Below the pieces are notes generated by a model, which saw only the letters and a program-made list of their open reading frames with translations, was not told the DNA's origin and did not search any database. DNA of 64,000 nucleotides from Pseudanabaena cinerea FACHB-1277 (GTDB lineage Bacteria; Cyanobacteriota; Cyanobacteriia; Pseudanabaenales; Pseudanabaenaceae). A program made the translations under genes and the position numbers. This document shows, piece by piece, positions 43,204 to 60,272 of this stretch. The DNA lies in the NCBI RefSeq assembly GCF_014696345.1, contig NZ_JACJPY010000001.1, forward strand, positions 47,501 to 111,500. The letters run 5' to 3'. Position 1 is the first letter of the stretch. Each line of letters starts with the position of its first letter.

Positions 43204-43370
43204 CGATCGCCTGATCCCAAGGCTTATGCACTGCGCCAAACTCATTGCCAAGATAACGGGCAGGTTTCAGGATTTCGGAATTGAGTAACTGTTCTACGGG
43301 TACGGGCATGGTTTCACGAGTATGTGAGCTAACCCTATTTTACATTTAGCGCGATCGCGATTTCATTTCA
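43204..43370 (-). pseudogene. Direct repeat A, copy 2: truncated 5' end of the radical SAM gene joined to a Uma2-type tail at a HIP1 site
   Basis: The first 35 codons of the 36.3-kb radical SAM gene are repeated from the ATG at 43309 back to 43204, followed upstream by related promoter sequence to about 43370. The match ends in GCGATCGC. On the other side, in a different frame, the minus strand reads RSLGVDE and a stop at 43186, much like the RSLGIDDE tail of the Uma2 remnant at 54.54 kb. The fragment cannot encode a functional protein. Confidence 0.9.
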
Positions 43371-43440
43371 TCACGGGTAAACAGATGTTAGCGATCGCAA
43401 AACAAGTAAAATAAGAGCATTACGAACAATGTAGATTTTT

Positions 43441-44061
43441 ATGGCATACAGTGACTTCACCTTTAGTAAAGTCAAAGAAGCTTTTCAGTTAACCATTGAC
43501 GAAAAGACAAATCTTTTTGCAAATACAGCTAAAGTTGCACCTTCCCAAATCTTGACGACACTGCTACAAGAAAACCTATCCTTTGCGATCGCCGTTGGTA
43601 CTGAAAAAGCAAGATCGGAATTTATCATTGCTCAGGTATTGGGGGAAGTGCGTCGCCAATTGAATTATAAAATTTCATTGTTTTCTGGTTCAGAGTTTAC
43701 GGTCGATCGCGATCGCGGATTGACAGGGTTTTGCGATTTTTTATTGAGCAGTTCTGAAGAACAGTTAGAAATCACATCTCCTGTAGTGATTATTATTGAG
43801 GCAAAGCGAGAAGATATTTTTGGTGGTGTCGGTCAATGTATTGCGGCGATGGTGGCGGCGCAAATCTTTAACGAACAACATCATAACAAAATCCCAATTA
43901 TTTATGGAGTTGTTACTAGTGGCACGAATTGGCGGTTTATTAAACTAGAAAAAAATTTAGTCCAGATTGATGCGATCGAATACTACATTAGCGAAGTGGA
44001 TAAGATTTTAGGAATATTATTAGAACCATTGCGATCGGTTTCTCAGCTTGTAAGTGTTTAA
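43441..44061 (+). CDS. PD-(D/E)XK nuclease-like hypothetical protein
   Basis: 206 residues. The segment 'GLTGFCDFLLSSSEE', followed by 'PVVIIIEAKRE' and 'GGVGQCIAAMVAAQIFN', gives an Asp and an ExK motif in the right order for a PD-(D/E)XK fold, and this pattern is frequent among cyanobacterial hypothetical proteins. A Gln shortly after the ExK (in GQC) resembles the QxxxY-type helix of RecB-like nucleases. The gene stands alone between pseudogenes. Its role, restriction or something else, is unknown. Confidence 0.65.
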   Translation: MAYSDFTFSKVKEAFQLTIDEKTNLFANTAKVAPSQILTTLLQENLSFAIAVGTEKARSEFIIAQVLGEVRRQLNYKISLFSGSEFTVDRDRGLTGFCDFLLSSSEEQLEITSPVVIIIEAKREDIFGGVGQCIAAMVAAQIFNEQHHNKIPIIYGVVTSGTNWRFIKLEKNLVQIDAIEYYISEVDKILGILLEPLRSVSQLVSV

Positions 44062-44112
44062 ATTGCTGTAAGCAGTAATTTTAGTTAAAAACTAACATTC
44101 TCATAAAGATCA

Positions 44113-44935
44113 TGGTTTACCTACAATAGTTTGCTGATGGATGTTTACAGGTAGTCATAAATCTCTGGCACACTGAGCGATCGCGTAGAGTTTCCAGTCC
44201 GCACATAGAGTTCAACTCCTTTTTCTGACTTGAGAAATGCAGCTTGTTTGGCTTTGCGGACATACACGCCGCAAATATCTTAATCGTTGATATGGATTTA
44301 AGATCGTTGATAGCTTTTGGGGTAATCTTTAGTTGTAAAAGAAATTTTTCAAACTGTTGATATTGGGGGTTTTCAGCCGTAAGTTTACGCATGGCGCGGC
44401 GAGTTTTAGACTCAATTACGGCGAGTTGATTGTTTACTTCATCAGAAATATCGTGAGCAGTCTTAGAAACAATTTCTATTAGCTGTTTGTAGTTACTATG
44501 GGAAACCTGTGCGATCGCTGCTTTTTCATTGGCTCTCTGACTAGCGATGCCCTGTTGTAACTTTTCAAGGTCATTGACAATTTCCTTAACAAGAGGGTGT
44601 TCTCCTTCCATTCTCTTAAGCAAGCGATAGGATATTGATCGCAGTACTGCTATTTCGTTACCAATTTTGTGATACATGGCACGATAGAGCATTTCGATAT
44701 CATCAATTTGCTCTTCATCGGCTCCAAATAGTTCGTAAGAAGTTTCTTCATCAGCGTTAAGGGCGATCGCTTTCATAGCTTCAGCATAGCGAGATGGGTT
44801 TTCTTCAATTAGATTAATTGCTGATTGATTATTGATATTGTATGCTATGGCAATGCAACTATTGTAAGCTGAGAGGCGATAATAATTGTTCAAACTGGTA
44901 AGATATAATCGAATAGGTTTACGGATTAAAATCAT
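44113..44935 (-). pseudogene. Fossil duplicate of the TPR kinase and REC-AlbA regulator genes with a large internal deletion
   Basis: 44293 to about 44840 is nearly identical to 51553-52090, the dimerisation-like region of the TPR kinase. At 44292 the sequence switches to the last 175 bp of the REC-AlbA gene (compare 44113-44292 with 49884-50059). The equivalent of 50060-51552, which holds the kinase ATPase domain and most of the regulator, is missing. The remaining 272-codon frame reads the regulator tail in the wrong frame and carries a junk N-terminus, so it is not functional. Confidence 0.93.
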
Positions 44936-44944
44936 AGAAAATTT

Positions 44945-46078: not shown

Positions 46079-47355
46079 TAACTCAAATAGAAATAGAAAA
46101 TTTCAAGTGTTTTAAAAATAGAGTGTCTTTCCCTTTAGGGAAGTTAACCTTATTAACAGGTATTAATGGCAGAGGTAAATCAACTTTACTTCAATCATTG
46201 TTACTGATGAGACAATCTATCGAGCATGATGAAAGTACTAGTAAAATCCTTTTGAATGGTAGTTGTGTTAATTTAAATAATTTTGACGATGTTCGGAATA
46301 AAGATACGATAAAAGATAAACCAATAATATTCAAATATTATTATAAATCTGTAAACTTAGGAAATGGATATTTTGAATATTGTTTTATTGAAAATGATGA
46401 TGAAATGACATTATATATTCCACAGTTAACTTTTTATTCCGAAGCAAAATTTAGATTTGAAAAATTGATTTTTAATACATTATTTGATAATAAAATAGTT
46501 TTTCGATGTGAACGTCAAGAAAATTTTTTATATAGAAAAGATTTTAATTTAACTATTTTTACAAACTTATTAAATTTAGTTCCTAGTAAATTTAATTTCA
46601 CTCATATAAACGAAGTACTTGAAACGCTAGTGTCACCTTTTGAATCTGTTTTAAATTTTAATTTTATTCATTACATCTCTGCCGATCGCATTGGACCAAA
46701 AGACTTTTATCTTAAATCAACTCTAGATAAATTCCCCAATGTTGGGGCAAGAGGTGAATTTACAGCTAATTTACTCTATAAAAAACAAGATGATTTAGTT
46801 GATGATAGACTCTGCTTAGGTGAAGATGCGAAAACCCTTATTACACAGACAGAAGCATGGCTAAGTAAAATCTTCGGTGGTGCAAAACTTGAAATACCTA
46901 GTTCAAAAAGCAGTGTTCTAGAATTACTATTTAATACAAGTGCATCAAAGGATCGGTTTAAACCTGCAAATGTAGGCTTTGGATTTCATAGCGTTCTACC
47001 AATTATCGTTTCAGGATTAATCGCCAAAGAAGGTGAAATATTAATCGTGGAAAATCCCGAAATACATCTACATCCAAGAGCGCAATCTGAGTTAACTAAA
47101 TTCCTCGCTAAAGTTAGTAGTTGTGGAGTACAGGTTTTAGTTGAGTCCCACAGCGATCATATTTTAAATGGTTTACGCATAGCAGTACTTGACAAAATAA
47201 TTGATTCAGAAGATCTAAGTATTCTATATTTTCAAAACGATTTAGAAAGTCCAGTTGTGCAAATACCCGTACAATCAGATGGTGGTATCGAAGAATGGCC
47301 AGATGACTTCTTTGATCAGACATCCAAAGATTTTGAAAGACTTTTTGGTATTTAA
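46075..47355 (+). CDS. AAA-type ATPase, DUF3696 family (OLD/SMC-like)
   Basis: 426 residues. The N-terminus 'ITQIEIENFKCFKNRVSFPLGKLTLLTGINGRGKST' has Walker A at 29-36. The C-terminal half shows 'GFGFHSVLPIIV' (signature-like), Walker B 'ILIVENPEIHLHPRAQSEL' and 'VLVESHSDHILNGLRIAV'. It closes with 'GGIEEWPDDFFDQ', the WPxGFFDQ-like ending typical of DUF3696. There is no Toprim domain. Such ATPases act as sensors or motors in several defence operons. It is coupled to the DUF262 gene and 2 nt from the next gene. Confidence 0.88.
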   Translation: MITQIEIENFKCFKNRVSFPLGKLTLLTGINGRGKSTLLQSLLLMRQSIEHDESTSKILLNGSCVNLNNFDDVRNKDTIKDKPIIFKYYYKSVNLGNGYFEYCFIENDDEMTLYIPQLTFYSEAKFRFEKLIFNTLFDNKIVFRCERQENFLYRKDFNLTIFTNLLNLVPSKFNFTHINEVLETLVSPFESVLNFNFIHYISADRIGPKDFYLKSTLDKFPNVGARGEFTANLLYKKQDDLVDDRLCLGEDAKTLITQTEAWLSKIFGGAKLEIPSSKSSVLELLFNTSASKDRFKPANVGFGFHSVLPIIVSGLIAKEGEILIVENPEIHLHPRAQSELTKFLAKVSSCGVQVLVESHSDHILNGLRIAVLDKIIDSEDLSILYFQNDLESPVVQIPVQSDGGIEEWPDDFFDQTSKDFERLFGI

Positions 47356-47357
47356 AT

Positions 47358-48206
47358 ATGGAAATATTTACCAATGAAGTTTCATTGGAAGGACAATATA
47401 CTAGCGAATCGGAATTTGTTAGTGCAATCAAAGATTTTATTGAAATATTTAAACTATTAAATAAAAAGACAAATAATAAACAAGTTTACAAAGAAGATAG
47501 TAAGTTATTTGTTAACTATAATGCTATTAGAGAATCAAATTTTAGTGCTAGCCTCAATATAATCAAAGACAAATCTTTAAAGCAAGCCTTTGTAGAAATA
47601 GTATTTAACAAGCAAAATCCTAAAGAGTGGCGAAAAGAGCAGTTACACTGCCCTAACGATTTATTTGATTACTTGAATAATGAAACATCCAAAAATGTAA
47701 ATGATACATCTTTAGCGGAGATTTCAGAAAGATCTCTAAGGAATAAAGACTCAATTTATTTAGTCATAAATTTTAAAAATTCAACTTTTAATTTATTGCA
47801 TCCAGATATTAAAGATTGCTGCATAATTCCAATCATAAAAAATAATGACGAAACACAACTCATTAAATTAGATGGAATTGACAGCTATTTAGCACTACAA
47901 AATTGGCTAGAAGTAAAATTAAGCTTAAGCAGAATAGAATATGATCTTTTGTCAAAATACCCACCTAAAGACCAACAAACAATATTGAGAGATACTCAGA
48001 GATTTCAAAAAACACAAAATATTTATGATGGAAGAACTATATATCGTGAAATTCTAAATGATCGGTATTGGTATGTAGATAATCTTCATTTTGGTCAGGC
48101 ATCGCATATTGAGGTTTTTAACGCCCAAGGAAACCATATTGGTGAATCTGATTTAGAGGGAAATATTGATGAGACAAAAAAAGATTTAAATAAAAAGATC
48201 TTCTGA
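47358..48206 (+). CDS. Unrecognised third protein of the DUF262/DUF3696 operon
   Basis: 282 residues, starting 2 nt after the ATPase gene. I recognise no family for residues 1-225. The C-terminal 55 residues ('GRTIYREILNDRYWYVDNLH', 'HIEVFNAQGNHIGESDL') resemble a short module I associate with toxin-like cyanobacterial proteins, but I cannot name it. There is no signal or membrane segment. Context says it works with the ATPase and the DUF262 protein, perhaps as effector or specificity part. Confidence 0.75.
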   Translation: MEIFTNEVSLEGQYTSESEFVSAIKDFIEIFKLLNKKTNNKQVYKEDSKLFVNYNAIRESNFSASLNIIKDKSLKQAFVEIVFNKQNPKEWRKEQLHCPNDLFDYLNNETSKNVNDTSLAEISERSLRNKDSIYLVINFKNSTFNLLHPDIKDCCIIPIIKNNDETQLIKLDGIDSYLALQNWLEVKLSLSRIEYDLLSKYPPKDQQTILRDTQRFQKTQNIYDGRTIYREILNDRYWYVDNLHFGQASHIEVFNAQGNHIGESDLEGNIDETKKDLNKKIF

Positions 48207-48260
48207 GGATATAGCGATCACTAGGCTATCTATTCTTAACACTACCTGCCCTCCTTCATC

Positions 48261-48332
48261 TAATCACAATAATATTTCACAATTATAGTGATATAAATTT
48301 CAGGACAGGTGCGCGGCTAACAGGCGATTAGT
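48261..48332. repeat. Dispersed intergenic repeat, copy 1
   Basis: About 72 bp similar to 54450-54522 in the same orientation, sharing CACAATAATA, GATATAAATT, CAGGACAGGT and CTAACAGGCGAT in order. It lies just upstream of a Uma2 gene; the other copy lies next to a Uma2 remnant. Confidence 0.8.
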
Positions 48333-48373
48333 TATAATCAGCATCATGGTCAATTTTTAGGAGGCGATCGCAT

Positions 48374-48946
48374 ATGGTTTTAGCAGCTACTAAGCGATAT
48401 ACCGCAACAGAATATCTAGCCCTAGAGGACAAAGCCGAATTTAAAAGTGAGTTTATTAACGGAGAAATTATCCCAATGGCAGGAGCTTCCGCAAATCACA
48501 ATAAAATCGCCTTAAATTTATGTCGGTTATTACCGCTAGTAATCGGTAATCAAACCTATGAAATATTCATGAGCGATATGCGTCTATGGCTTCCTGAATA
48601 TAGTCGTTATACCTATCCTGATGTGATGGTTGTCGCTGGCGAGCCAATTTTTGTTGATCAAAAGCAGATGGAAGTTACTAATCCCTGCTTGATTGTGGAG
48701 ATTCTATCTGGCTCCACTCAAGCCCACGATCATGATAGTAAATTCCGTCAATATCGCTCTATTCCTAGCTTTCAAGAATATATTTTGGTTTATCAAAATG
48801 GCTATGAAGTTGATCACTATGTGAAGGAATCAGATGATCGATGGATTTTGACAACCTATAGGGGAGAATCTGCTGTGATCAAACTTTCTTCAATCCAGTT
48901 AGAAATTAGTTTGCGAGATTTGTATAGGCGTGTGACGTTTGATTGA
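48374..48946 (+). CDS. Uma2 family (DUF820) putative nuclease
   Basis: 190 residues, the normal length of the short form. Landmarks: 'TATEYLALEDKAEFKSEFINGEIIPMAGAS' at the N-terminus, 'YTYPDVMVV' with the conserved Asp, 'LIVEILSGST' (E) and 'HDSKFRQYRSI' (K), giving a PD-(D/E)XK-type core. The family is greatly expanded in cyanobacteria and its function is unknown. AGGAGG stands directly before a HIP1 octamer that fills the gap to the ATG. Confidence 0.92.
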   Translation: MVLAATKRYTATEYLALEDKAEFKSEFINGEIIPMAGASANHNKIALNLCRLLPLVIGNQTYEIFMSDMRLWLPEYSRYTYPDVMVVAGEPIFVDQKQMEVTNPCLIVEILSGSTQAHDHDSKFRQYRSIPSFQEYILVYQNGYEVDHYVKESDDRWILTTYRGESAVIKLSSIQLEISLRDLYRRVTFD

Positions 48947-48950
48947 TTGT

Positions 48951-49265
48951 GTACGCTCAAAATACTCTTCTTCCCACATCACATAGCTGTTACGCGAACC
49001 GCAATTTTTGCGCCGCTCCACACCTAAAGCTCAAAAACCCATCAGGAATAACAGGAACTCTAGGATTTACGCCAGTAGTGTGATAGATACCCATATCCAC
49101 CCCAAAGTACCAATCATCAAGATTTTTCCAAATATATTCTAGTAGGAATAACAGTAAATTTGGGACAAAATTCTGATCTTCGTTATCCACAGGCGTATCA
49201 TCAGAATCTGGTAATTCGTCACTGGTGGGTAGATGTTTGAGATCGATTTGTAGCATCGGAATCAC
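48951..49265 (-). pseudogene. Truncated, frameshifted Uma2-type gene
   Basis: From 49265 the frame encodes the N-terminal part of a long-form Uma2 protein ('LPTSDELPDSDDTPVDNE', 'DWYFGVDMGIY', 'VPVIPDGFLSF'). After 'GFLSF' it shifts; the neighbouring frame continues the family with 'ERRKNCGSRNSYVMWEEEYF' to about 48951, where similarity stops. So there is one frameshift and a missing C-terminal half. Confidence 0.85.
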
Positions 49266-49312
49266 CGCAAAAGTATCTTAGCTATCTAACGGATATTATA
49301 GGAGACTTTTCT

Positions 49313-49879
49313 CTAAAATTTGACATCTTCATAAAGCTCGGCAAATTTCCCTTCAAAATTGATGCTCGACAATTGGAATTTATCTTGCTCTCCAGAGTAT
49401 GACTTTAACAGCCAAAGTCCATCTTGATTGCGGCAGAAACAGTCAAGGCGCTGGCGTTTGGTGTTGACTAGGACATATTCTTCTAGAGTTTCTATTTGTT
49501 GATAATCAGCAAATTTGTCACCACGGTCGAATCCTTCGGTAGATTTGGATAGAACTTCGATAATTAGTTTTGGATATCTCTTTTGATTTTGTGATTCGGT
49601 ATCTCTAGGATCGCAAGTTACCATAACATCTGGATAATAAAAACGGTTCAATGAATCGATTCTCGCTTTCATGTCAGAAATATAAACACGACAGCCTGAT
49701 CCTCGTAAATGATTACGAATCATCATAAAAGCATTACTTGCGATCGTCACATGAGGATCGTTTGCGCCAGCCATTGCATAAACATATCCATCGATATATT
49801 CATGTTTGATTTCGCTTTGCTCTTCCATTTCGAGATATTGGTCGGGAGTTATGTAATCAAATTTTGGTGTTGCAATCAT
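49313..49879 (-). CDS. Uma2 family (DUF820) putative nuclease
   Basis: 188 residues. 'ITPDQYLEMEEQSEIKHEYIDGYVYAMAGAN' near the N-terminus, 'FYYPDVMVTCD' and 'KLIIEVLSKSTEGFDRGDKFADYQ' provide the Asp, Glu and Lys of the PD-(D/E)XK-like core. It is complete and starts with a normal ATG. It lies 30 bp downstream of the REC-AlbA gene on the same strand, so it may be read from the same transcript. Confidence 0.92.
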   Translation of the reverse strand: MIATPKFDYITPDQYLEMEEQSEIKHEYIDGYVYAMAGANDPHVTIASNAFMMIRNHLRGSGCRVYISDMKARIDSLNRFYYPDVMVTCDPRDTESQNQKRYPKLIIEVLSKSTEGFDRGDKFADYQQIETLEEYVLVNTKRQRLDCFCRNQDGLWLLKSYSGEQDKFQLSSINFEGKFAELYEDVKF

Positions 49880-49910
49880 GATTTATTTACAATAGTTGGC
49901 TGATAGGTGT

Positions 49911-50981
49911 TTACAGATAATCATAAATCTCTGGGACGCTGAGCGATCGCGTTGAATTTCCAGTCCGCACATAGAGTTCTAATCCTCTTTCTGATTTGAG
50001 AAATGCGGCTTGACTGGCTTTGCGGACATACACGCCGCAGATATCTTGATCGTTGATTTTAGTAAAACGGATTTTTAGATAGGGGAGAAACTTGATTCCT
50101 ATTTTGTTTTTGATTAGTTCTACCAGATGACGTTCAAAGTTATCGAGGGTGCGATTACGCGGATCTTTAAAGGACTGAATATCTTTCTCTAATCCAAACA
50201 GGTTTCCATTATCTTCAACACCAATGATTACTGTCCCACCTTCAGAGTTCAGGAATGCAGCAATACTCTTGAGGACACTATCTTGCAATTTTTCATTTTT
50301 GGTGTTTTCGCGGACATCCCATTGCAGAGAGCTTTTAAACTCTAGGGTATCACTTTCGCCTAGTTGAATTAGTTCCTCGATAGAACGTAGATCGCCAATT
50401 TTTTTAATCGTGGTGGTAAATCGTCTGAGTTTGCGTTCTTCTAGTTTTGTGAATAGTTCTGTTTCACTATCCGCAAAGTCGATGACAACTTGATTGGCGA
50501 TCGCAATGTATTGTCCCCAATATTTGGCTTCAAGATCCTGCTGATTTTCTGCAAACCATTGTTGATTGGAGAGATTGCCCCAGCGATTGAGATAGGCGAT
50601 CGCCTCTTGAATGGAATCATTGAGGGTATCAAAGGCGTTACCTGTGGGCGGATTTTTGGATATGTAGTCCCAAGCCTTTGATTTCCATGCGCGATAGCAG
50701 TCTTCTAAGGACTCATTGGCGGTAAAAATAATCACGACTGAGGATAGGTTGCGCTGTTGCACCCAATCGAGAATCGTAAAACCTGCATCAGCCTCATCGT
50801 ACATTCGCATATCCGAAACTATGATATCAAAAGGATCTGCCAGTTTTTCTAATGCCTCTGCGGTGGTGGTGGCGGTGACTATTTCCTCATAGCCAAAGTC
50901 TTCGCGTAGCCACATTAGCAACTCATTCAAGTTATCGGCTCGGTCTTCGATTACTAGGAGATGGGCGTTTTGAGTTTGCAT
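49911..50981 (-). CDS. Response regulator fused to an AlbA_2/Schlafen-type domain
   Basis: 356 residues. The REC domain (about 5-125) has 'LLVIEDRADN', phospho-acceptor Asp57 in 'FDIIVSDMRMYDEADAG' and a Lys in 'AWDYISKNPP'. A linker with helices follows (130-205). Residues about 208-356 match the AlbA_2 (PF04326) group: 'GESDTLEFKSSLQWD', 'SIAAFLNSEGGTVIIGVEDNG', 'LVELIKNKIGIKFLPYL' and 'VRTGNSTRSL'. AlbA_2 proteins bind nucleic acid and some are ATPases or nucleases. The gene is 51 bp after the TPR kinase and should be its partner. Part of its 3' end is duplicated at 44.1 kb. Confidence 0.88.
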   Translation of the reverse strand: MQTQNAHLLVIEDRADNLNELLMWLREDFGYEEIVTATTTAEALEKLADPFDIIVSDMRMYDEADAGFTILDWVQQRNLSSVVIIFTANESLEDCYRAWKSKAWDYISKNPPTGNAFDTLNDSIQEAIAYLNRWGNLSNQQWFAENQQDLEAKYWGQYIAIANQVVIDFADSETELFTKLEERKLRRFTTTIKKIGDLRSIEELIQLGESDTLEFKSSLQWDVRENTKNEKLQDSVLKSIAAFLNSEGGTVIIGVEDNGNLFGLEKDIQSFKDPRNRTLDNFERHLVELIKNKIGIKFLPYLKIRFTKINDQDICGVYVRKASQAAFLKSERGLELYVRTGNSTRSLSVPEIYDYL

Positions 50982-51032
50982 GATTCTCTGTTTTTTGAAT
51001 GATTTTACAATGCTTTGCTAGAAGACATTTGA

Positions 51033-54000
51033 CTATAAATATGGCAAATATATCTGAAATCTTACCCCTTTACCTGCTTCGCCGACTTCTCGGATTTGTC
51101 CACCCATTTTTTTGATGGTTTTACGGGCGATGAATAGTCCTAAGCCACTACCCTTGTCTTCGGGGGATGTGGTTTTTAGGGGTTGGAAGATCCAATCTTT
51201 TTTATCGTTTGGTACGCCTTGACCGTTATCTTTAAATTCGATGTATAAAAATTTGCGATCGCCAGGGATGGTCGGACTGCCTACGTCCATAGGATTGTCC
51301 ATATCGCTAGAATACATACGGATCGATAAATTAGGGTTGCCGTGATTATGCTTGAGTGAATTTTCCACAAGTTCATTGAGAATGCTTTTAATTTTCTCTT
51401 CATCACCATTAAATTCTGCGTCTGGATTACGAATGTCAAGACGAATCCGCACACCATCGATGCGCGGTTGGCTTGTCCAGTTGGCTGGCTCCCATTTTTC
51501 AAATAATTGATGCACTAAAAAGCGATTTCTCCGAATGGTTTTGCCTTCATTAATGGATTTAAGATCGTTGATAGCTTTTTGGGTAATCTTTAGCTGTAAA
51601 AGAAATTTGTCAAACTGCTGATATTGGGGATTTTCATCCGTAAGTTTACGCATGGCGCGGCGAGTTTTAGACTCAATTACGGCGAGTTGATTGTTTACTT
51701 CATCAGAGATGTCATGGGCAGTTTTAGAAACAATTTCTATTAGCTGTTTGTAGTTACTGTGGGATATACCTGCGATCGCTGCTTTTTCATTGGCTCTCTG
51801 ACTAGCGATGCCCTGTTGCAACTTTTCAAGGTCATTGACAATTTCCTTAACAAGAGGGTGTTCTCCTTCCATTCTCTTAAGCAATCGATAGGAAATTGAC
51901 CGCAGTACTGCTATTTCGTTGCCAATTTTGTGATACATGGCACGATAGAGCATTTCGATATCATCAATTTGCTCTTCATCGGCTCCAAATAGTTCGTAAG
52001 AAGTTTCTTCATCAGCATTAAGGGCGATCGCTTTCATAGCTTCAGCATAGCGAGGTGAGTCTTCTTGGATTTTGAGTAATAGGTTAATTGCTTCTTGACT
52101 ATTGGGATTTGTTGCTAAAAGGCTACGGGCAGCATAGAGAATGGTTTTATCTTGTTCGTCTGAGTTAGCGATCGCTTCTTCAAAAAATTGTTTTCCTAAG
52201 TCAATTTGAGCTAATCGATAATACAATCGCCCAAGATTTAATCTAATAATGTTGGCGTGATAAGTCTTTTGTGTGGCTAATTCAATTGCCAAAAGTTGTG
52301 TAAGAGCTTCCTTAATATTGCCTTCTGCTTCAAGTTGTTTGGCATACTGCAATCGAGCATAGGAATCATTTGGGCAAAGTTCGATTAGTCGCCACCATGA
52401 ACAGGATTGAACTAGGGCATTTGCATAGCTGTTTAATGTGCGGACATCACTTCTATCTAATTGTAAGCATTGTTCAAAGAAATCAGAAGCGCGTTGATAT
52501 TGTCCTTGCAGTACTAAGGCATTTGCATAGCTAACCAATGTACGGATATTACTTTTATCTAATTTTAATGAAAGCTCAAATAATTCATTAGCATTTTGAT
52601 ACTCTCCTTGTTTGACTAGAGCATTTGCATAGCTGTTTAATGTAAGAATATCATTTTTATCTAATTGTAAGCATTGTTCAAATAATTCATTCGCCTGTTG
52701 ATATTCTCCTTGTTCTACTAATGTATTTGCAAAACTAGTTAATACACGAAAATTATTTGGCTCTAATTTTAAGCATTGTTTAAACAACTCAGAAGCACGT
52801 TGAAATAGTCTTTGCTGCACTAATGAATTGGCATAGCTGGTTAATGTGCGGACATCATTTCTATCCAGTTGTAGGCATTGTTCAAACAATTCATTAGCAT
52901 ACTGATATTCTCCTTGCTCTACTAACGCATTTGCGTAGCTGTTTAGTGTAGGAATATTATTTGGCTCTAATTGCAATGAACATTCAAATAATTCACTAGC
53001 CTGTTGATACTCTCCCTGTTGTACTAACGAACTTGCATAGCTGTTTAGCGTGCGAAAATTATTTGGCTCTAATTGCAATGAATATTCAAACAATTCACTA
53101 GCCCGTTGATACTCTTCTTGTTTTACTAACGCATTTGCGTAACTGTTTAGTGTGCGAAAATTATTTGGTTCTAGCTTTAAGCATTGTTCAAATAATTCAG
53201 AAGCACGTTGATATTTACATTGCTCTACTAATGCGTTTGCATAGCTATTTAGTGTAGGGATATTATTTGGCTCCAATTGCAATGAATATTCAAACAATTC
53301 GCTAGCCCTTTGATACTCTCCCTGTTGAGCTAACGAAATTGCATAGCTATTTAGTGTGCGAAAATTATTTGGTTCTAACACTAAGCATTGTTCAAACAAT
53401 TCACTAGCACGATGATACTGTTCCTGTTGTGCTAACAAAATTGCATAGCTATTTAGTGTAGGAATATTATTTGGCTCCAATTCTAAACATCGCTCGAACA
53501 ATTTAGAAGCTCTTTGATATTCTTCTTGTTGAGCTAAAGCATTTGCATAGCTGTTTAAAATGTAAACATTATTTTTTTCTAATTGTAAACATTGTTTAAA
53601 TAATTCACAAGCACCTTGATATTCTCCTTGTTGCACTAATGCATTTGCATAACTAGTTAAGGTAGGAGTATTATTTTTATCTAACTGTAATGAATGCTCA
53701 AACAATTCATTTGCACGTTGATATTCTCCTTGTTGCACTAATGCATTTGCATAACTAGTTAAGGTAGGAACATTATTTTTACTTAATCGTAAGCATTGTT
53801 CAAATAGCTCATTCGCTTTTTGATAAGCGCCAGCCATTGCTGCTGCCCTACCATATGCTGAAGTAATGCTTAAATTATTTGGTTCAAGTTCTAAGCCATG
53901 TTCAAAAAGTTCAAACACTCTTGTAAAGTTTCTCTGATGATTTAAAACTTTAATGTAACTAAAAATATTTTTAATGCTGTCTGGCTCTAATTTTAAGCAC

Positions 54001-54257
54001 CTTTCAAATAATTCACTTGCTTTACTATATTGGTTAGTATCTCTCATTGCCTTAGCATAATCTGCAATAATTTCAGCATTATTCGGATAAATCACTAGAG
54101 CTTGATCAAATAATGCGATCGCCTCTTCTAACTTCCCTGCCTTAGCTAAATCTCTAGCTTTTCTACTCAGTTCAGTTGCCTTCGCTAACTCACCAGAATT
54201 AACTACTTCACTAGAAGTATCTATCTCATTTGTACCTTGCAAAGTAAAACCACTCAT
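51033..54257 (-). CDS. Giant TPR-repeat histidine kinase
   Basis: 1074 residues. Residues about 27-604 are 17 tandem 34-residue TPR units with the core SYANALVxQGEYQRASELFEQCLxLEPNN; a less regular helical part follows to about 720. Residues about 730-900 are helical and look like a dimerisation region. It has no standard H-box, but 'AMYHKIGNEI' and 'TAHDISDEVNNQ' could supply the phospho-acceptor His. The C-terminal HATPase domain has the N-box 'LNELVENSLKHNHGN', 'DNGQGVP' and 'GSGLGLFIARKTI'. There is no membrane segment, so it should sense something in the cytoplasm, perhaps a protein. The next gene encodes the matching regulator. Confidence 0.9.
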   Translation of the reverse strand: MSGFTLQGTNEIDTSSEVVNSGELAKATELSRKARDLAKAGKLEEAIALFDQALVIYPNNAEIIADYAKAMRDTNQYSKASELFERCLKLEPDSIKNIFSYIKVLNHQRNFTRVFELFEHGLELEPNNLSITSAYGRAAAMAGAYQKANELFEQCLRLSKNNVPTLTSYANALVQQGEYQRANELFEHSLQLDKNNTPTLTSYANALVQQGEYQGACELFKQCLQLEKNNVYILNSYANALAQQEEYQRASKLFERCLELEPNNIPTLNSYAILLAQQEQYHRASELFEQCLVLEPNNFRTLNSYAISLAQQGEYQRASELFEYSLQLEPNNIPTLNSYANALVEQCKYQRASELFEQCLKLEPNNFRTLNSYANALVKQEEYQRASELFEYSLQLEPNNFRTLNSYASSLVQQGEYQQASELFECSLQLEPNNIPTLNSYANALVEQGEYQYANELFEQCLQLDRNDVRTLTSYANSLVQQRLFQRASELFKQCLKLEPNNFRVLTSFANTLVEQGEYQQANELFEQCLQLDKNDILTLNSYANALVKQGEYQNANELFELSLKLDKSNIRTLVSYANALVLQGQYQRASDFFEQCLQLDRSDVRTLNSYANALVQSCSWWRLIELCPNDSYARLQYAKQLEAEGNIKEALTQLLAIELATQKTYHANIIRLNLGRLYYRLAQIDLGKQFFEEAIANSDEQDKTILYAARSLLATNPNSQEAINLLLKIQEDSPRYAEAMKAIALNADEETSYELFGADEEQIDDIEMLYRAMYHKIGNEIAVLRSISYRLLKRMEGEHPLVKEIVNDLEKLQQGIASQRANEKAAIAGISHSNYKQLIEIVSKTAHDISDEVNNQLAVIESKTRRAMRKLTDENPQYQQFDKFLLQLKITQKAINDLKSINEGKTIRRNRFLVHQLFEKWEPANWTSQPRIDGVRIRLDIRNPDAEFNGDEEKIKSILNELVENSLKHNHGNPNLSIRMYSSDMDNPMDVGSPTIPGDRKFLYIEFKDNGQGVPNDKKDWIFQPLKTTSPEDKGSGLGLFIARKTIKKMGGQIREVGEAGKGVRFQIYLPYL
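52446..54179. repeat. Seventeen tandem 102-bp coding repeats (TPR units)
   Basis: The central units (about 52600-53800) are strongly similar at DNA level, with near-identical blocks such as TTTGCATAGCTGTTTA, showing recent expansion and homogenisation. Confidence 0.9.
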
Positions 54258-54449
54258 AACAAAACCATGCTTATCCTTAACTCATATTCCAAAGCGATAT
54301 CGCCTACAAACGAACTAAGTACGAAATTTATTTTCAAGAAATATCACGTTACTACCCAAATATAACAAACATTTCAGAAAACTCAATGCCCTTAATCTAG
54401 CGGCACATCTTTCGGCTTTTCCCCAGTGGTGAGATAGCGCTGTCTTAAT

Positions 54450-54522
54450 CAAACCACAATAATACTCCACGGTTAAAGCGATATAAATTACAGGACAGGT
54501 CAGCGACTAACAGGCGATCGCC
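54450..54522. repeat. Dispersed intergenic repeat, copy 2
   Basis: Matches 48261-48332 in the same direction, with small differences. It sits in the roughly 450-bp gap between the TPR kinase gene and the pilin-like gene, which also contains a Uma2 tail. A short minus-strand frame here (ending 'TTGEKPKDVPLD', about 54395-54450) may be another gene tail but is too short to call. Confidence 0.75.
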
Positions 54523-54539
54523 ATTTTGATCACAACGCT

Positions 54540-54659
54540 TTACTCGTCATCAATACCAAGCGATCGCAACTTTGCCAATAACGACTCCACCTGTTTGTGA
54601 GCGGCATCAGCCCGTTTTCGCCCAATCATAGCCCTTTGTTGTGCAATGTCAGCTTGAAC
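54540..54659 (-). pseudogene. C-terminal remnant of a long-form Uma2 gene
   Basis: A 39-codon open stretch between a TAG (54660) and a TAA (54540) encodes 'IAQQRAMIGRKRADAAHKQV' then 'LLAKLRSLGIDDE'. This is the charged helical tail that ends many long Uma2 proteins. No Uma2 core precedes it. The last bases (RSLGIDDE) resemble the tail piece at 43186-43210. Confidence 0.7.
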
Positions 54660-54751
54660 CTATAATTCAGCTAAATCTTACACAGATCATCCTCTGGCGG
54701 ATGCAGCCCTGTTTGAGTCCAAAGAAATCTTGTGCTTCTGCAATATTGCAA

Positions 54752-55714
54752 TTAATTACTAATATCTATATAGCCTTCAGGACATTTAGGTGTAGCAGTC
54801 AGTTGAAACTTGGCGGGAGTTTTGGTCGGGGTTTTACTCTCGCAGAGAAGATTGAAAGTTGTGGGTTCCGATAAATTACCTTTTAAATTTGCAGTGTAAA
54901 CCAAGCCTATATAGGACTTCAAGTTATTTTTTTTGGGAAGGCTAATCTGTTGGACTGCCTTTTTAGGATCGAGAACGATAATTTGATATTTGTAATTTTC
55001 AGACTCATCCCGAATGCCAATTGATAAGGCGGCAATCGTACTAGCAAATTTACCAGTTTCCAAAAAAACAGCTTGCTGAGCGCGATTCATCGTGCCAACA
55101 TAGGTCTTAGCCTCACGCTCCGCTTTATTTTTTGCAGGGCTTTGAGGGGGAATAAATTCAAGTTTTGGGGCTAAATTTGTGTCACTGGAAACTTTGGTTA
55201 AAGAAAGCAAATCAGGCATGAAGAATTTGCCCACAATTTCGGGATTGTAAGAATTTTGCAAAATCGCTGGAATGAATAGCTGCTGAATTATTAACTTACC
55301 TTTAGGGTCAATAGTAAAAGAAGTTCTCGCGCCAAAGCTGCCTTGGTAAATATCTAGATAGACTTTTCCATTGATATTATTGATTTGATATTCTGCTCGA
55401 ATGGCGGTCTGTTTTGTTCTGTTAATCAAATAGAGTTTGCCATCGGGGGCAAATAGAAAAATCAAAGAATCGTCATCACTTGCATCACCATCACGGAAAG
55501 GAGCAGTTATTTCCCATTGTCCAAGTAATTGCTGTGATTCTGGCGATGTTCCTGAAGATGTTCCTGAAGGTTCGCTAGCGATCGCCTGTAAGTCTTGTAA
55601 GCTTAGGTGAGGATTAGTTACTGGAATTAAATAATTAATTCCCAAGGCGATCGCTAAGGTAGCAGATAAATTAACAAGCGATCGCTGAATTTTTTTTGAT
55701 AAAGAATATTTCAT
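54752..55714 (-). CDS. Secreted protein with type IV pilin-like G/H domain
   Basis: About 320 residues from the ATG at 55714; the frame also has an ATG at 55774, but those 20 residues look non-coding. A hydrophobic N-terminal segment (NLSATLAIALGINYLIP) acts as signal or anchor. The middle (about 60-190) is an unrecognised beta-rich domain (LLGQWEITAPFRDG). The C-terminal part matches the Pilin_GH family as remembered: 'EAKTYVGTMNRAQQAVFLETGKFA' followed by 'YQIIVLDPKKAVQQ'. The usual pilin cleavage motif is missing, so it is probably not a fibre subunit. Confidence 0.75.
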   Translation of the reverse strand: MKYSLSKKIQRSLVNLSATLAIALGINYLIPVTNPHLSLQDLQAIASEPSGTSSGTSPESQQLLGQWEITAPFRDGDASDDDSLIFLFAPDGKLYLINRTKQTAIRAEYQINNINGKVYLDIYQGSFGARTSFTIDPKGKLIIQQLFIPAILQNSYNPEIVGKFFMPDLLSLTKVSSDTNLAPKLEFIPPQSPAKNKAEREAKTYVGTMNRAQQAVFLETGKFASTIAALSIGIRDESENYKYQIIVLDPKKAVQQISLPKKNNLKSYIGLVYTANLKGNLSEPTTFNLLCESKTPTKTPAKFQLTATPKCPEGYIDISN

Positions 55715-55943
55715 GGATTTAGATTTTTGGGCAGAGCGCAAAGCGATGTAATATTCGCCAATATAATAAATCATGACAATAAATCATGACAAGCTTAACT
55801 AATAGATAGATAATTAGATAGATAATTATGGTGCAGTCACTATTGGCAACTATATCGACTTTCAACTTGGCAATCAGTCAATCCAATTTACCTTTTTCCA
55901 TATATCAAGCGATGGATATTGGGGAATATTGGCTTGTTGACTA

Positions 55944-56993
55944 TTGGGTAGTTCAGTTATTTTGAGTAGCAATTACAGCGTCCTAATTTTAGGCATAGCC
56001 GCCCTCCTCGATCGCCTAATTGGTGATCCGATCAATTGGCTGCATCCTGTGCAGGTAATGGGATGGCTGATTGCTAAATTTACAGAAATAGTCACGGTTA
56101 ATGATGCAGTTAATTCACGGCGATCGCCGCGTTTTGCCCCGCAGATCATGAGAGCCTTGGGAATCGTTTTGGGATTAGGTTTAATAATTGGTTCAGGGCT
56201 TATGACTTGGTTGCTATTGGCGATCGCGGCACAGGTGCATTCAGGCTTAGGAATAGCGATCGCTAGTATGTTATTAGCTGCTTGCTTTGCAGGGAGAAGT
56301 CTCCGCGATGCTGCCGAATCGGTTTTAACAGTATTGGCAACGGGAGATTTAGAACAGGCGCAACAACAACTTAGTTACTATGTGGGAAGAGATACCGCCA
56401 ACCTATCAGAATCAGAAATTTTACGCGCCATTTTGGAAACTGTCACCGAAAATGCGATCGATGGCGTGACCTCGCCCCTGTTTTATGCGATCGTGGGTTC
56501 GCTAATTTGGGACTATGGCGGTGTGGTCGGGGCGATCGCCTACAAAGCCGCCAGTACCCTCGATTCGATGGTGGGCTATCGGGAAACGCCGTACAGCGAT
56601 TTAGGATGGTTTAGTGCTAAGACCGATGATGTTTTGACTTGGCTGCCCTGTCGCCTCACGGTTCTTACCCTTGCCCTTGTTTCTGGTCAACCCCTCACAG
56701 TTTGGCGGATCTGCCAACGGGACGCAAAGCAAGATCCTAGTCCTAATTCTGGGTGGAGTGAATGCGTCTATGCTGCCATTTTACAAGTACAGCTAGGCGG
56801 CGAAAATTACTATCGCGGTGTGGTTAAGTCCAAACCATTGCTTGGTAATCCCATTGAGGCGATCGCCCCTGCCAAAGTTCAACAGGCACTCAGCCTAACT
56901 CGGCTATGCTTTTTAATATGGTTAGGCTTATTCCTATTGTTATTCTTCTTGTTGCCAAATCTTTGGCAATGGTTCCATCATAACTGGGCGTAA
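55944..56993 (+). CDS. cbiB: Adenosylcobinamide-phosphate synthase
   Basis: About 343-349 residues with several membrane segments. Landmarks: 'LLDRLIGDPINWLHPVQVMGWLI', 'LSYYVGRDTANLSESEILRA', 'VTENAIDGVTSPLFYAIVG', 'YKAASTLDSMVGYR' and 'LGGENYYRGV'. The enzyme attaches aminopropanol (or its phosphate) to adenosylcobyrate in B12 synthesis. The first codon is a TTG at 55944; another TTG at 55962 is possible and no clear ribosome binding site decides between them. There is another B12 gene (cobH) at 18 kb. Confidence 0.93.
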   Translation: MGSSVILSSNYSVLILGIAALLDRLIGDPINWLHPVQVMGWLIAKFTEIVTVNDAVNSRRSPRFAPQIMRALGIVLGLGLIIGSGLMTWLLLAIAAQVHSGLGIAIASMLLAACFAGRSLRDAAESVLTVLATGDLEQAQQQLSYYVGRDTANLSESEILRAILETVTENAIDGVTSPLFYAIVGSLIWDYGGVVGAIAYKAASTLDSMVGYRETPYSDLGWFSAKTDDVLTWLPCRLTVLTLALVSGQPLTVWRICQRDAKQDPSPNSGWSECVYAAILQVQLGGENYYRGVVKSKPLLGNPIEAIAPAKVQQALSLTRLCFLIWLGLFLLLFFLLPNLWQWFHHNWA

Positions 56994-57071
56994 CCTGCGG
57001 CGCTAGGTTGTCACCGATAGCGATTTGCAAAGCACTGTATGATCAAGGGGAATTAGAATCTAAAAAATACA

Positions 57072-57875
57072 ATGCAAGATCAAGAAACAAGCTGGCAGTC
57101 ACTATTTCTAGTAGCAATATTAGGAATCTTGGCAGTGCTTAGCTTCAACTCATTTGTAATCGTTAACCCAGGTGAAGCGGGGGTATTAAGCGTTCTCGGC
57201 AAAGCCAAGGATGGCGTACTTCTTGAAGGCGTGCATTTTAAGCCACCAGTGATCTCACAGGTAGATGTTTATGATTTGACGGTGCAGAAATTTGAAGTGC
57301 CTGCCCAAAGCTCTACCAAGGATCTGCAACAATTGACTGCAAGTTTTGCCATTAACTTTCGCCTTGACCCCATCGAAGTGGTGACGATCCGCCGTAGCCA
57401 AGGGACTTTGCAAAACATCGTTGCCAAAATCATTGCACCGCAAACCCAAGAATCCTTTAAGGTGGCCGCCGCTAGACGCACCGTTGAGGAGGCAATTACC
57501 AAACGGGACGAATTAAAACAAGATTTTGATGAGGCACTAAGCCAACGATTGAGCAAATATGGCATCATCGTTTTAGATACAAGCGTGGTGGATTTGAATT
57601 TCTCGACAGAATTTTCTAAGGCTGTAGAAGAGAAGCAAATTGCCGAACAACGCGCTCAAAGGGCTGTCTATATTGCCAGAGAAGCAGAACAAGAGGCTGA
57701 AGCAACAATCAATCGGGCTAAAGGTCAAGCGGAAGCGCAAAGGCTCTTGCGCGAAACCTTAACCTCTGAACTGTTGCAAAAACAGGCGATCGAAAAATGG
57801 GATGGCAAGTTTCCGCAGGTGCTAGGCGGTAATGGTGCTGTGCCTTTTCTCAATCTAAATGTGCAGCCGCAGTAA
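57072..57875 (+). CDS. Prohibitin-family (SPFH/band 7) membrane protein
   Basis: 267 residues. One N-terminal membrane segment (about 10-30) is followed by the SPFH domain starting 'IVNPGEAGVLSVLGKAKDGVLLEGVHFKPP', with 'FEVPAQSSTKDLQQLTASFAINFRLDP' and 'IIAPQTQESFKVAAARRTVEEAI'. The C-terminal half is a long helix rich in Ala, Glu and Gln, typical of prohibitins. Cyanobacterial prohibitins form large ring complexes in the membrane; function is not settled. It is followed by a terminator. Confidence 0.93.
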   Translation: MQDQETSWQSLFLVAILGILAVLSFNSFVIVNPGEAGVLSVLGKAKDGVLLEGVHFKPPVISQVDVYDLTVQKFEVPAQSSTKDLQQLTASFAINFRLDPIEVVTIRRSQGTLQNIVAKIIAPQTQESFKVAAARRTVEEAITKRDELKQDFDEALSQRLSKYGIIVLDTSVVDLNFSTEFSKAVEEKQIAEQRAQRAVYIAREAEQEAEATINRAKGQAEAQRLLRETLTSELLQKQAIEKWDGKFPQVLGGNGAVPFLNLNVQPQ

Positions 57876-57885
57876 ATAAAAATTG

Positions 57886-57910
57886 GGACACCTATGGTGT
57901 CCTAGTTTTT
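57886..57910 (+). terminator. Intrinsic terminator of the prohibitin gene
   Basis: GGACACC (57886-57892), loop TAT, GGTGTCC (57896-57902), then TAGTTTTT. The T-run overlaps a possible TTG start at 57909 of the next frame, which supports choosing the ATG at 57939 for that gene. Confidence 0.88.
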
Positions 57911-57938
57911 GATTAAATCAACAAGCAAATCAAAGCCA

Positions 57939-60272
57939 ATGAATACGATGCAGCCGTCTTCTTTAGAAAATAAGCGCCGTAATCCTCTGCAACAGTTACA
58001 GCAAAATGCCGAATTCACAACCATTGCTGCCGAGGATTCGATCCCTTTGCGGGTGATGGTGCAGATTTTTGTATTTATCAGTATTGGCGCGATGGATGCG
58101 GTGGCGAGTTCGGGCAATAGTGCTTGGGCAATTCCCCTGAGTGCGATCGCCGCCGTATGGGCATATTACGCTAGGCGCAAGCGCAATGTGGTGGTGAAAT
58201 TTTTCATCGCGATCGCCATGATAGCGATGTTGGTGGTATTTCTGAACGATCTCGTTCGCAATACCGATGAAACAAGGCTATTACTGGCAAGATTATTAAT
58301 TCAGTTGCAAGTGCTGCATAGCTTTGACTTACCGCGCCGTAAGGATTTGGGCTATTCCATTGTGATCGGGCTGATCTTGATGGCTTTGGCTGCCACCTTG
58401 AGCCAGACGATGATATTTGCCCTGTGGTTAATGGCTTTTCTATTGGTAGGTTTGCCGATTCTGCTCCTTGACCATCGCTCACGGCTAGGACTGCCCACAA
58501 TTAGCTTTCAGCCCCAAAAGATGGGCATATCGATTTTGCCACTTTCAGGTCTATTAGCGATCGTCTTGGTGCTAGGTTTAACGATTTTTGCTTTTTTACC
58601 CCGTTTACCAGGCTTCCAATTACGGAACTTTCCTGTGAGTGTTAACTTGGCGGTAGAGCGGCAAATTCCCCGTGGGGGCATCCTGTCGCGGCAACAGCAA
58701 AATCAGCAAAATCAACAAAATCAGCAAAATGGCAATATCATCGGCACGAATGGCACGGGTGATGCCAATGGCAATAATCCCATTGATTCGCTGCCGCCCC
58801 TGTTTGCCCCTGAGATTGATACGGCTTCGACTGGCAAGCAAATTAGCGCTCAACGTCAACCTGAACTGATGATGCGGGTGCGATCGCAGGCAGAATTATT
58901 TTGGCGGGTGATGTCCTATGACGAATTTACGGGCAAGGGCTGGCGGATCTCACGCAATAACCCCGAACAGATTCGCACGATTCGGCGTAGTCCTTTTAAC
59001 TATGAGTTTTTCTTGCCCTTTCCCCCCTATGGGCTGAGCTTATTGCGCCGCGATCGGGCGATTACAGCCCAAGAAGTAATTCAAACCTACACCATCACCT
59101 CACCCAACTTTCCCAATCTTGTCCCCGCCGCTTCGGAACCCAGTCGCATCTTTTTCCCCAGTGAGGAGTTGGACGTGGATCAAGAAGGAATGATCCGATC
59201 GCCTGCGCCTATTCCGCCAGATTTTACCTATACCGTAATTTCTAATGTGATGGAGCGCAACCCCAAGTTATTGCGCCAAGTCCCCAATGAATACCCCAAG
59301 TCAATTACCAAATATTATTTGCAATTGCCGCCGAACCTGTCGCCATCGGTACGCGATACCGCCGTCAGTTTCTTAGGAAATGCCAAGGATAGTCAAGGCA
59401 ATCCTGTTAATTTTGACAATATATATGACGTGGTGGTGCAGGTTGCCCAAGGGGTCAAGGGTAGCTATGCAGTCAAATCCTTAAACTTTGATCCTGCCAA
59501 GGGGGATTTGGTATCGCAGTTTGTGGCGCAGGGTGGCGGCGAAGAAAGTCATTTTGTGTCCACCTTAGCGGTAATGTTGCGATCGCTAGGTATTCCCACC
59601 CGCTATGTGGTGGGCTTTGCCCCTGGCAAGTTTAATCCCTTCACAGGGCTGTACGAAGTTCAAAATATTGATACTCAGTCCTTAGTGGAAGTGTTTTTCC
59701 CATCCTATGGCTGGATCAGCTTCGATCCTGTACCCGGTCGCCCCCTTGTGCCGCCATCCATTGAAAATAATCGCACCTTCGGGGTAATTCAAACCTTTTG
59801 GAGTTGGCTCACCAGTATCTTGCCTAGCCCCGTCAACAACTTTTTTGCGGGTCTATTTGAGAATATTGTGAAATTCTTGAGTGGGATTGTCAGTTGGCTA
59901 ATCGAGATGGGTTGGGCTGGCTTAGCATTAGGGGTAGCGATCGTCTTTGGCATCGGTATCGGTGGTTGGGCGCTCTGGCAGGCGCTGATCACTTGGTGGG
60001 AATATCAGCGTTTGCAAAGAATGCCATTGCCACAGCGTAGTTATCAGCTTATGCTGCAATGGCTCAAGGAGCAGGGCAAGCCCAAATCCCCCTATCAAAC
60101 GCCCCAAGAATATGCGGTCAGCCTCAGCGATCGCGTCTCTGCCACCCAATCCGCCGCGATCGCCAAGATCACGCAGATCTATCAAGACTGGCGCTATGGC
60201 AATCGGGCGATCGATTACGAGCTATCGCAGGAGCTAAAACAACTGCTCAGTCAACTAAGGGCAAAAATTTAG
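57939..60272 (+). CDS. TgpA-like membrane protein with a degenerate transglutaminase domain
   Basis: About 777 residues. The N-terminal 250 residues have five to six membrane segments as in TgpA/DUF3488 proteins. A Gln/Asn-rich linker (QQNQQNQQNQQN, near residue 260) leads to a large periplasmic part with a transglutaminase-like core near residues 535-615 (GGGEESHFVSTLAVMLRSLG, RYVVGFAPG, LVEVFFPSYGWISFDPVPG). In active family members the first segment carries Cys and the second reads HAWVEV; here the matching places are Glu/Ser and QSLVEV, so Cys and His appear to be absent. A final membrane helix (about 665-690) and a C-terminal DUF4129-like segment complete the typical layout. Confidence 0.88.
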   Translation: MNTMQPSSLENKRRNPLQQLQQNAEFTTIAAEDSIPLRVMVQIFVFISIGAMDAVASSGNSAWAIPLSAIAAVWAYYARRKRNVVVKFFIAIAMIAMLVVFLNDLVRNTDETRLLLARLLIQLQVLHSFDLPRRKDLGYSIVIGLILMALAATLSQTMIFALWLMAFLLVGLPILLLDHRSRLGLPTISFQPQKMGISILPLSGLLAIVLVLGLTIFAFLPRLPGFQLRNFPVSVNLAVERQIPRGGILSRQQQNQQNQQNQQNGNIIGTNGTGDANGNNPIDSLPPLFAPEIDTASTGKQISAQRQPELMMRVRSQAELFWRVMSYDEFTGKGWRISRNNPEQIRTIRRSPFNYEFFLPFPPYGLSLLRRDRAITAQEVIQTYTITSPNFPNLVPAASEPSRIFFPSEELDVDQEGMIRSPAPIPPDFTYTVISNVMERNPKLLRQVPNEYPKSITKYYLQLPPNLSPSVRDTAVSFLGNAKDSQGNPVNFDNIYDVVVQVAQGVKGSYAVKSLNFDPAKGDLVSQFVAQGGGEESHFVSTLAVMLRSLGIPTRYVVGFAPGKFNPFTGLYEVQNIDTQSLVEVFFPSYGWISFDPVPGRPLVPPSIENNRTFGVIQTFWSWLTSILPSPVNNFFAGLFENIVKFLSGIVSWLIEMGWAGLALGVAIVFGIGIGGWALWQALITWWEYQRLQRMPLPQRSYQLMLQWLKEQGKPKSPYQTPQEYAVSLSDRVSATQSAAIAKITQIYQDWRYGNRAIDYELSQELKQLLSQLRAKI

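Follow-up and report, generated by a model that had tools for sequence, protein, structure and literature searches.

A TPR histidine kinase and a REC-AlbA_2 response regulator form a conserved gene pair in Pseudanabaena cinerea that may act as a phosphorylation-gated nuclease system

Introduction

Most response regulators control transcription. The gene pair described here, from Pseudanabaena cinerea FACHB-1277 (contig NZ_JACJPY010000001.1, positions 47,501 to 111,500 of the forward strand; this whole stretch of 64,000 bp is called the window, and coordinates refer to it unless another locus is named), encodes a soluble histidine kinase with tetratricopeptide repeats (TPRs) and a response regulator in which a receiver domain (REC) is joined to a Schlafen-type AlbA_2 domain.

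Among the described systems, PorX/PorY has a response regulator whose output is an enzyme that acts on (oligo)nucleotides, as set out in the pertinent part of PMC12839542. PorX structures were among the top Foldseek matches of the regulator model, resting on REC and the general layout at root-mean-square deviations of 12-18 Å, but the PorX output is a PglZ domain, whereas the window regulator has no PglZ and was assigned only AlbA_2, REC and a weak DUF5678 by Pfam. BREX-linked Schlafen-family RNases, proposed as defence effectors in the same part of PMC12839542, likewise combine a Schlafen-type domain with a histidine-kinase-type ATPase; they are described there as single fused proteins with a minimal histidine kinase and a winged helix-turn-helix (wHTH) and no receiver, whereas the window has two genes and a REC. 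That part also cites a preprint from 2025 that deals with bacterial Schlafens in phage defence.

The Toprim of the type I-C retron Retron-Eco2, reported to be an RNase, carries a Glu, an Asp at +4 and a DxD motif (PMC12405507, section on this domain). Comparable TOPRIM-like domains occur in relatives of the window pair, but on a REC-DUF5678 protein without reverse transcriptase, and in variant loci rather than in the window. In the DefensePredictor paper of 2026, the legend of Fig. 6F covers eight defence systems that are predicted and unvalidated, and TPR, HATPase and REC are among its labels; the main text does not contain Schlafen, AlbA or Toprim (PMC13092281). The pair may conceivably have been noticed there before. 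No paper describing a REC-AlbA_2 or REC-TOPRIM regulator was found in the open-licence PMC literature.

Results

Kinase and regulator are encoded as a conserved pair

The two open reading frames (ORFs) lie on the (-) strand, kinase first, with a spacing of 51 bases:

51033..54257, (-) strand: TPR histidine kinase, 1074 aa (ORF; TPR and HATPase_c; homologue 5' of the regulator in 32/32 loci)
49911..50981, (-) strand: response regulator, REC - linker (DUF5678-like) - AlbA_2, 356 aa (ORF; Pfam; AlphaFold2 mean pLDDT 89)

Both frames, their order and their coordinates agree with an earlier annotation made from the letters alone (the sequence-only reading), and so do an intact HATPase domain and an AlbA_2 output. 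Pfam assigned TPR families and HATPase_c (4.8e-17) to the kinase, for which 25 of 42 families were listed, and Response_reg (1.1e-13) and SLFN_AlbA_2 (PF04326; 3.2e-19) to the regulator. SLFN_AlbA_2 scored 70.1 bits, above its curated cut-off of 25.3, and DUF5678 scored 21.3 bits, below its cut-off of 23.2.

Genome contigs were scanned with regulator-only patterns, giving 37 loci, of which three (L085-L087), with similarity that was receiver-type only or less, were excluded before counting; a further locus, L083, starts inside the regulator and has nothing upstream to score. A REC-AlbA_2 regulator was present in 32 loci besides the window (L051-L082), and a kinase homologue was located directly upstream on the same strand in 32/32, counting as adjacent L081, with the regulator in two frames, and L082, with the kinase in two frames. 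The distance between the genes ranged from a short overlap (L077) to 306 bases (L067). The sequence-only reading had held that separation of the genes in other genomes would speak against a common system; they were neighbours in all 32 loci.

The pair is under purifying selection. Ratios of nonsynonymous to synonymous substitution (dN/dS) between the window and three congeners were 0.147, 0.138 and 0.148 for the regulator; the AlbA_2 part gave 0.127 and 0.149, with the third congener saturated, and the kinase C-terminus gave 0.076 and 0.106 against congeners.

The receiver and the nuclease-type motif of the regulator are conserved

The regulator domains are arranged as follows:

50652..50957, (-) strand: REC domain, residues 9-110, with phospho-acceptor Asp57, Thr87 and Lys109 (Pfam; residues 32/32)
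50436..50534, (-) strand: DUF5678-like linker, residues 150-182 (below the Pfam cut-off in the window; above it in L084, L155 and L156)
49941..50357, (-) strand: SLFN_AlbA_2 output domain, residues 209-347, ExxxxExK at 209-216 (Pfam; conservation)

In an alignment of 32 regulators, comprising the window and 31 loci (L051-L080 and L082, without L081), the receiver residues D57, T87 and K109 were invariant. The AlbA_2 residues, whose loss had been named beforehand as a refuting outcome, were kept: E209 and K216 in 32/32 and E214 in 31/32, with Asp in L082. D257 was found in 31/32, and R339 was invariant; in SLFN14, R133 is an essential Arg close to the Schlafen-type nuclease motif. Foldseek with the regulator model returned receiver domains, PorX and 3lmm, which we take to be an AlbA_2 protein, and VIA-align listed only REC structures, with the remaining regulator parts barely probed. 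SLFN14 requires ExxxxExK for RNA cutting, as stated in the relevant passage of PMC12215978.

Twelve AlbA_2 matches lacked a REC, and ten of these were scanned (H4 and H5 left out). AlbA_2 was fused to restriction-enzyme domains in 6/10, as two GmrSD_N fusions and four Eco57I and/or N6_Mtase fusions; the remaining four had AlbA_2 only. Cyanobacterial proteins of the second kind (L040, L042, L043, L044) have Eco57I/N6_Mtase followed by a C-terminal AlbA_2, which appears there as a module of type IIG-like restriction proteins. The GmrSD_N-AlbA_2 fusions (L162 2324-4501 and L164 2327-4498) are encoded on Sinorhizobium and Haloquadratum plasmids near annotated restriction-subunit genes.

A TOPRIM-like domain replaces AlbA_2 in four loci

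A TOPRIM-like domain was found instead of AlbA_2 in L083, L084, L155 and L156. In L083, from a Desulfonema metagenome-assembled genome (MAG), REC and DUF5678 are followed by the TOPRIM-like stretch, and in L084, from a Campylobacterales MAG, a TPR kinase is followed by a REC-DUF5678 ORF, and the TOPRIM-like stretch occupies the ORF after that, as though the two had been split apart. Three kinases of the family are encoded in G410, the genome of L077: the neighbour of one is REC-AlbA_2 (L157), and the other two have REC-DUF5678-TOPRIM neighbours (L155 and L156). A further locus, L160 (genome G769), encodes REC-AlbA_2 without a DUF5678 match.

The metal-binding residues EGPTD and DxD were present in 4/4 TOPRIM-like sequences. 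When L083, L155 and L156 were scanned with PADLOC, the RT-Toprim_I-C models matched L083 (8.3e-7) and L156 (1.7e-6) and not L155. Pfam gave no reverse transcriptase family for the L155 and L156 regulators, only REC and DUF5678. When the kinases were placed in a tree of 37 rows, the two from G410 that go with TOPRIM fell among AlbA_2 kinases, and the starred branches force at least two label changes, in a tree with long branches flagged by the program and an arbitrary root. The AriB Toprim of PARIS, another effector of this fold, cuts tRNA according to the part of PMC12409363 that deals with it. This exchange on one kinase/REC chassis, together with the AlbA_2-restriction fusions, supports phosphorylation-gated nucleases with swappable effectors, and it agrees with the proposal of the sequence-only reading that the output plausibly acts on nucleic acid.

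In Anaerolineales HSG24 (L156 1582-9270) the kinase and REC-TOPRIM genes run into an AAA_15 ATPase (PD-T4-4_A/Old-like), a further ORF and a REC protein that stands alone; PD_DExK-type genes lie upstream, and together these may be parts of a larger system.

The kinase has an invariant candidate acceptor histidine

Three elements of the kinase core were delimited:

51774..51968, (-) strand: first DHp-like hairpin, residues 764-828, with His776 (codon 51930-51932) as proposed phospho-acceptor (conservation; AlphaFold2 helices)
51546..51752, (-) strand: second, degenerate DHp-like hairpin, residues 836-904, with Asp852 in the acceptor position and His848 one turn earlier (conservation; PDB profile alignment)
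51042..51407, (-) strand: HATPase_c catalytic domain, residues 951-1072 (Pfam; N- and G-box conservation)

The kinase was said by the sequence-only reading to lack a standard H-box, and alignment of the 730-900 region was proposed to find the conserved His. In 32 aligned kinases (window, L051-L080 and L084, without L081 and L082), His776 was invariant within an H-box-like motif, HKIxNE, which does not support that claim; what is missing is a HisKA family, in the full Pfam lists of three homologues (L054, L078 and L084). The N- and G-box residues N966, D1010, G1012, G1036, G1038 and G1040 were likewise present in 32/32, as was Asp852, and His848 was present in 31/32, with Glu in L084. His776 is the likely phospho-acceptor, judged from this alignment. 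His848 as sole acceptor was rejected on grounds short of proof, because L084 has Glu there and the residue sits one turn away from the aligned acceptor position.

The AlphaFold2 kinase model (mean pLDDT 76.5; blocks of the hairpin region from 44 to 84) predicts four helices in two hairpins, residues 764-795/801-828 and 836-870/877-904. A local profile-profile comparison of the two hairpins gave a probability of 79 and an E value of 1.6e-5 (for a single comparison), pairing His776 with Asp852 and Asn780 with Asn856. In a PDB profile search, Asp852 aligned to the His of HDFNN in CckA (5idj), where the NN is kept, and to the His of HEIRNP in 3a0r; both His residues are presumably phospho-acceptors. 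Replacement of the acceptor by another residue has a precedent in DivL. None of the four PDB alignments listed usefully covered hairpin one. The window kinase thus resembles CckA/HisKA-type kinases in its second hairpin and differs from them in the extra His-bearing hairpin that precedes it in the same chain. Because His776 is invariant and the second hairpin has Asp852 in the acceptor position, the DHp module looks duplicated and half degenerate; each chain would carry an acceptor hairpin and a degenerate one (His to Asp), which may form an intramolecular four-helix pseudo-dimer. Soluble monomeric histidine kinases exist (PMC10359499, in the part bearing on them).

The TPR array varies in length between congeners

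The N-terminal part of the kinase is a repeat array:

52338..54161, (-) strand: TPR array, residues about 33-640, ~17 units of 34 aa (repeat analysis and Pfam)

In the kinase DNA the tandem repeat has a period of 102 bp, 13.8 copies and 74% matches. The array had been described as 17 near-identical units; the count of about 17 stood, and near-identity did not, the 12 central units having a mean amino-acid identity of 67% (range 50-88%). There are ~17 units in the window, 12-13 in SR411 and 3-4 in biceps, where an uncertain ORF start affects the count, and the kinase C-termini are 91% identical among these congeners. This turnover in length fits the changeable recognition surface that had been suggested and does not show one. 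PADLOC 2023 gave no matches for the window kinase other than PrimPol and PDC-M71B, both over the TPR part.

Distribution of the pair

Carriers of the pair were found in Cyanobacteria (Pseudanabaena, Spirulina, Okeania, Nostoc, Microcoleus, Planktothrix, Dolichospermum and others), Thiotrichales (Parabeggiatoa and one more) and Chloroflexota. Many named carriers are, we assume, filamentous (cyanobacterial filaments, Parabeggiatoa, Desulfonema). Within the genus the regulator was found at high score in 4/26 genomes (G000, G001, G009 and G023). Among 386 cyanobacterial genomes drawn, five had the kinase at E <= 1e-35. Three of these have an intact regulator (G000, G124 and G359), in G027 it is cut short, and in G257 no regulator lies beside the kinase. 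The contigs of G001, G009, G023 and G359 are those that also appear as L053, L052, L051 and L066. The kinase was detected in 1/191 genomes of the phylum of G410, an Anaerolineales genome, that one being G410 itself, and in 1/192 genomes of the class of the Desulfonema MAG G408 (G769).

Broken versions were also observed. In G027 (L132 3017-7804) transposase-like genes lie between the TPR part, the kinase part and what is left of REC, a short remnant, and in G269 the regulator lacks most of REC and has no kinase upstream. The distribution is sporadic, mostly paired and decay-prone. Six plasmid records matched, with the AlbA_2 part only, and the TOPRIM type had no plasmid match. In L161 (7165-9984) a family kinase ends before the ATPase domain and is followed by an AAA-ATPase-like gene, by decay or as another arrangement.

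A decayed second copy and the genomic surroundings

The sequence-only reading had noted a fossil copy near the pair, and blastn bore this out:

44109..44847, (-) strand: decayed second copy, regulator 3' end joined to kinase middle (blastn to 49875-50057 and 51553-52117)
48254..48328, (-) strand: upstream-flank remnant of the second copy (matches 54444-54518, 82.7%)

Positions 44109-44291 matched 49875-50057 at 88.5%, and 44292-44847 matched 51553-52117 at 91.9%; the pieces abut, and 1,495 bases of the live arrangement are gone. A query of 54400-54560 against its own genome gave two matches, itself and the 48254-48328 remnant, with no third. Between the remains of the second copy sits a complete NsnABC, a candidate defence system (44945-48206, (+) strand; PADLOC E 5.9e-121, 9.9e-123 and 1.1e-97); NsnABC probably invaded a tandem copy or took the place of part of it. 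A search for NsnABC in the open-licence PMC literature turned up the letters only in unrelated senses.

Two small PDC-S03/Uma2-type genes flank the pair (48374-48946 and 49313-49879), the second of which is also beside the pair in P. biceps. PD_DExK (PDLC01472) homologues are near the pair in two very distant genomes, at 43441-44061 in the window (3.7e-50) and at 1582-2202 in L156 (7.3e-47). At 41037-42884, (-) strand, a coiled-coil protein with 126-bp repeats has a C-terminal part matching MkoB (6e-25), a Mokosh-type defence model, and at 31923-33380, (-) strand, a Ser/Thr kinase-like protein has strong matches to PD-T4-6 defence models (5e-60), which may reflect a generic kinase match.

In the comparison of 34 loci, any one family of neighbouring genes was shared by five loci at most, and the biggest of these groups seems to consist of TPR pieces from the kinase. 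Defence-type neighbours occur in some loci: next to L156 are a PD_DExK gene and the AAA_15 ATPase with its PD-T4-4_A match, and next to L160 is an AbiLi-like ATPase, both loci having been picked because they were striking. The description of the surroundings as defence-rich was thus borne out in part, by NsnABC, PD_DExK and the two PDC-S03/Uma2-type genes, and weakened by the position of NsnABC inside the second-copy remains and by homologue flanks that, where annotated, are mostly non-defence. An Rfam scan of 40000-58000 gave no match at gathering thresholds; promoter-like sites (8 vs 15.7 in shuffles) and terminator-like sites (6 vs 4.0) were counted and not used as evidence.

Discussion

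The pair is a real, conserved two-gene system, and the best reading is a two-component system whose response regulator is itself a phosphorylation-gated nuclease, a statement that as a whole stands a little better than an even chance. That kinase and regulator form a dedicated two-component pair is close to certain, and a nuclease as the regulator output is reasonably probable; a role in defence is plausible, with the chances evenly balanced. A protein or peptide cue would be bound by the cytoplasmic TPR array, the kinase would autophosphorylate on His776 and the phosphoryl group would pass to Asp57 of REC, which would switch the attached nuclease module in one direction or the other, probably via dimerisation. 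The module would be a Schlafen-type AlbA_2, probably an RNase, in the window, and in some relatives a TOPRIM-like domain resembling the one found in type I-C retrons. The most likely use would be a self-limiting response in the manner of abortive infection, accessory in nature and patchily distributed. A broader proposal is held more tentatively, with the odds somewhat against it: a phosphorelay immune family. In it, a TPR kinase whose DHp pseudo-dimer is half degenerate would gate interchangeable nucleases via REC, TPR units being gained and lost as a changeable surface for infection cues.

Several results weigh against the gated-nuclease reading or against a defence role. ExxxxExK also occurs in 12/12 other AlbA_2 proteins that aligned (13 loci given), so the motif would be necessary and not decisive for a nuclease, and PADLOC 2023 found 0 families for the window regulator. 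The TOPRIM assignment is weak outside PADLOC, whose RT-Toprim models miss L155: Pfam gave OLD-like_TOPRIM at E 0.013 for L083, Toprim at E 0.11 for L084 and no family over the TOPRIM-like part of L155 and L156; hhalign to OLD-like TOPRIMs gave a probability of 25 and E 8e-4 vs 0.1-0.54 for five unrelated profiles; and a PDB sequence search with the TOPRIM alignment returned only three chance-level matches. The AlphaFold2 hairpin model is of moderate confidence, and a global profile alignment of hairpin one with hairpin two was weak (probability 4.9, E 0.0024). G257 has the kinase without a regulator beside it. Among viral contigs 33 stretches matched the pattern of the regulator alignment with 0 relatives, and phage records gave no homologue match. 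A hand-picked sample of 20 larger flanking ORFs of homologous loci, annotated with Pfam rather than PADLOC, held one HsdM and one Uma2 as its only restriction-type proteins, two proteins without family and 16 of other families, including MnmG/GidA, Tex, topoisomerase, Clp ATPase, cyanophycin synthetase and transporters.

Part of this evidence would suit an AlbA_2 domain that binds nucleic acid without cutting, the pair being a two-component regulator of gene expression or RNA handling and not an effector. Many response regulators end in nucleic-acid-binding domains, the shared motif includes relatives not known to cut, and the flanks are often without defence genes. This explanation is nevertheless unlikely, since the TOPRIM-like domain on the same chassis is easiest to explain if the output is enzymatic, and the AlbA_2 relatives are located on restriction-type proteins. 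The same flanks, the presumed filamentous habit of many carriers and a reversible phosphorelay control that suits a physiological cue would fit a nuclease switch serving a stress or cell-fate programme (e.g. translation arrest or programmed cell death in filaments) instead of phage defence. Such a purpose is rather improbable given the rarity and patchiness (5/386 cyanobacterial genomes) and the decayed copies, as for accessory conflict genes, and given effector types common to restriction proteins and retrons. A decaying pair without current function, its TPR expansion being repeat noise, might be read from the fossil copy adjoining the live pair and the broken versions in G027, G269 and L081, but kinase adjacency in every scored locus, a regulator dN/dS of ~0.14 and intact catalytic residues make it highly improbable.

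If the gated-nuclease reading is true, phosphorylation would directly gate a nuclease, with two unrelated nuclease folds swapped on one chassis, and bacterial signalling would be joined to effector-type immunity through a reversible switch on the effector. A duplicated, half-degenerate DHp would bear on how soluble histidine kinases manage without canonical dimers. As sensor, switch and effector can be taken apart in a system of two genes, the idea lends itself to direct testing, and the pair may represent a form of virus defence, or of self-limiting stress response, that has yet to be described.

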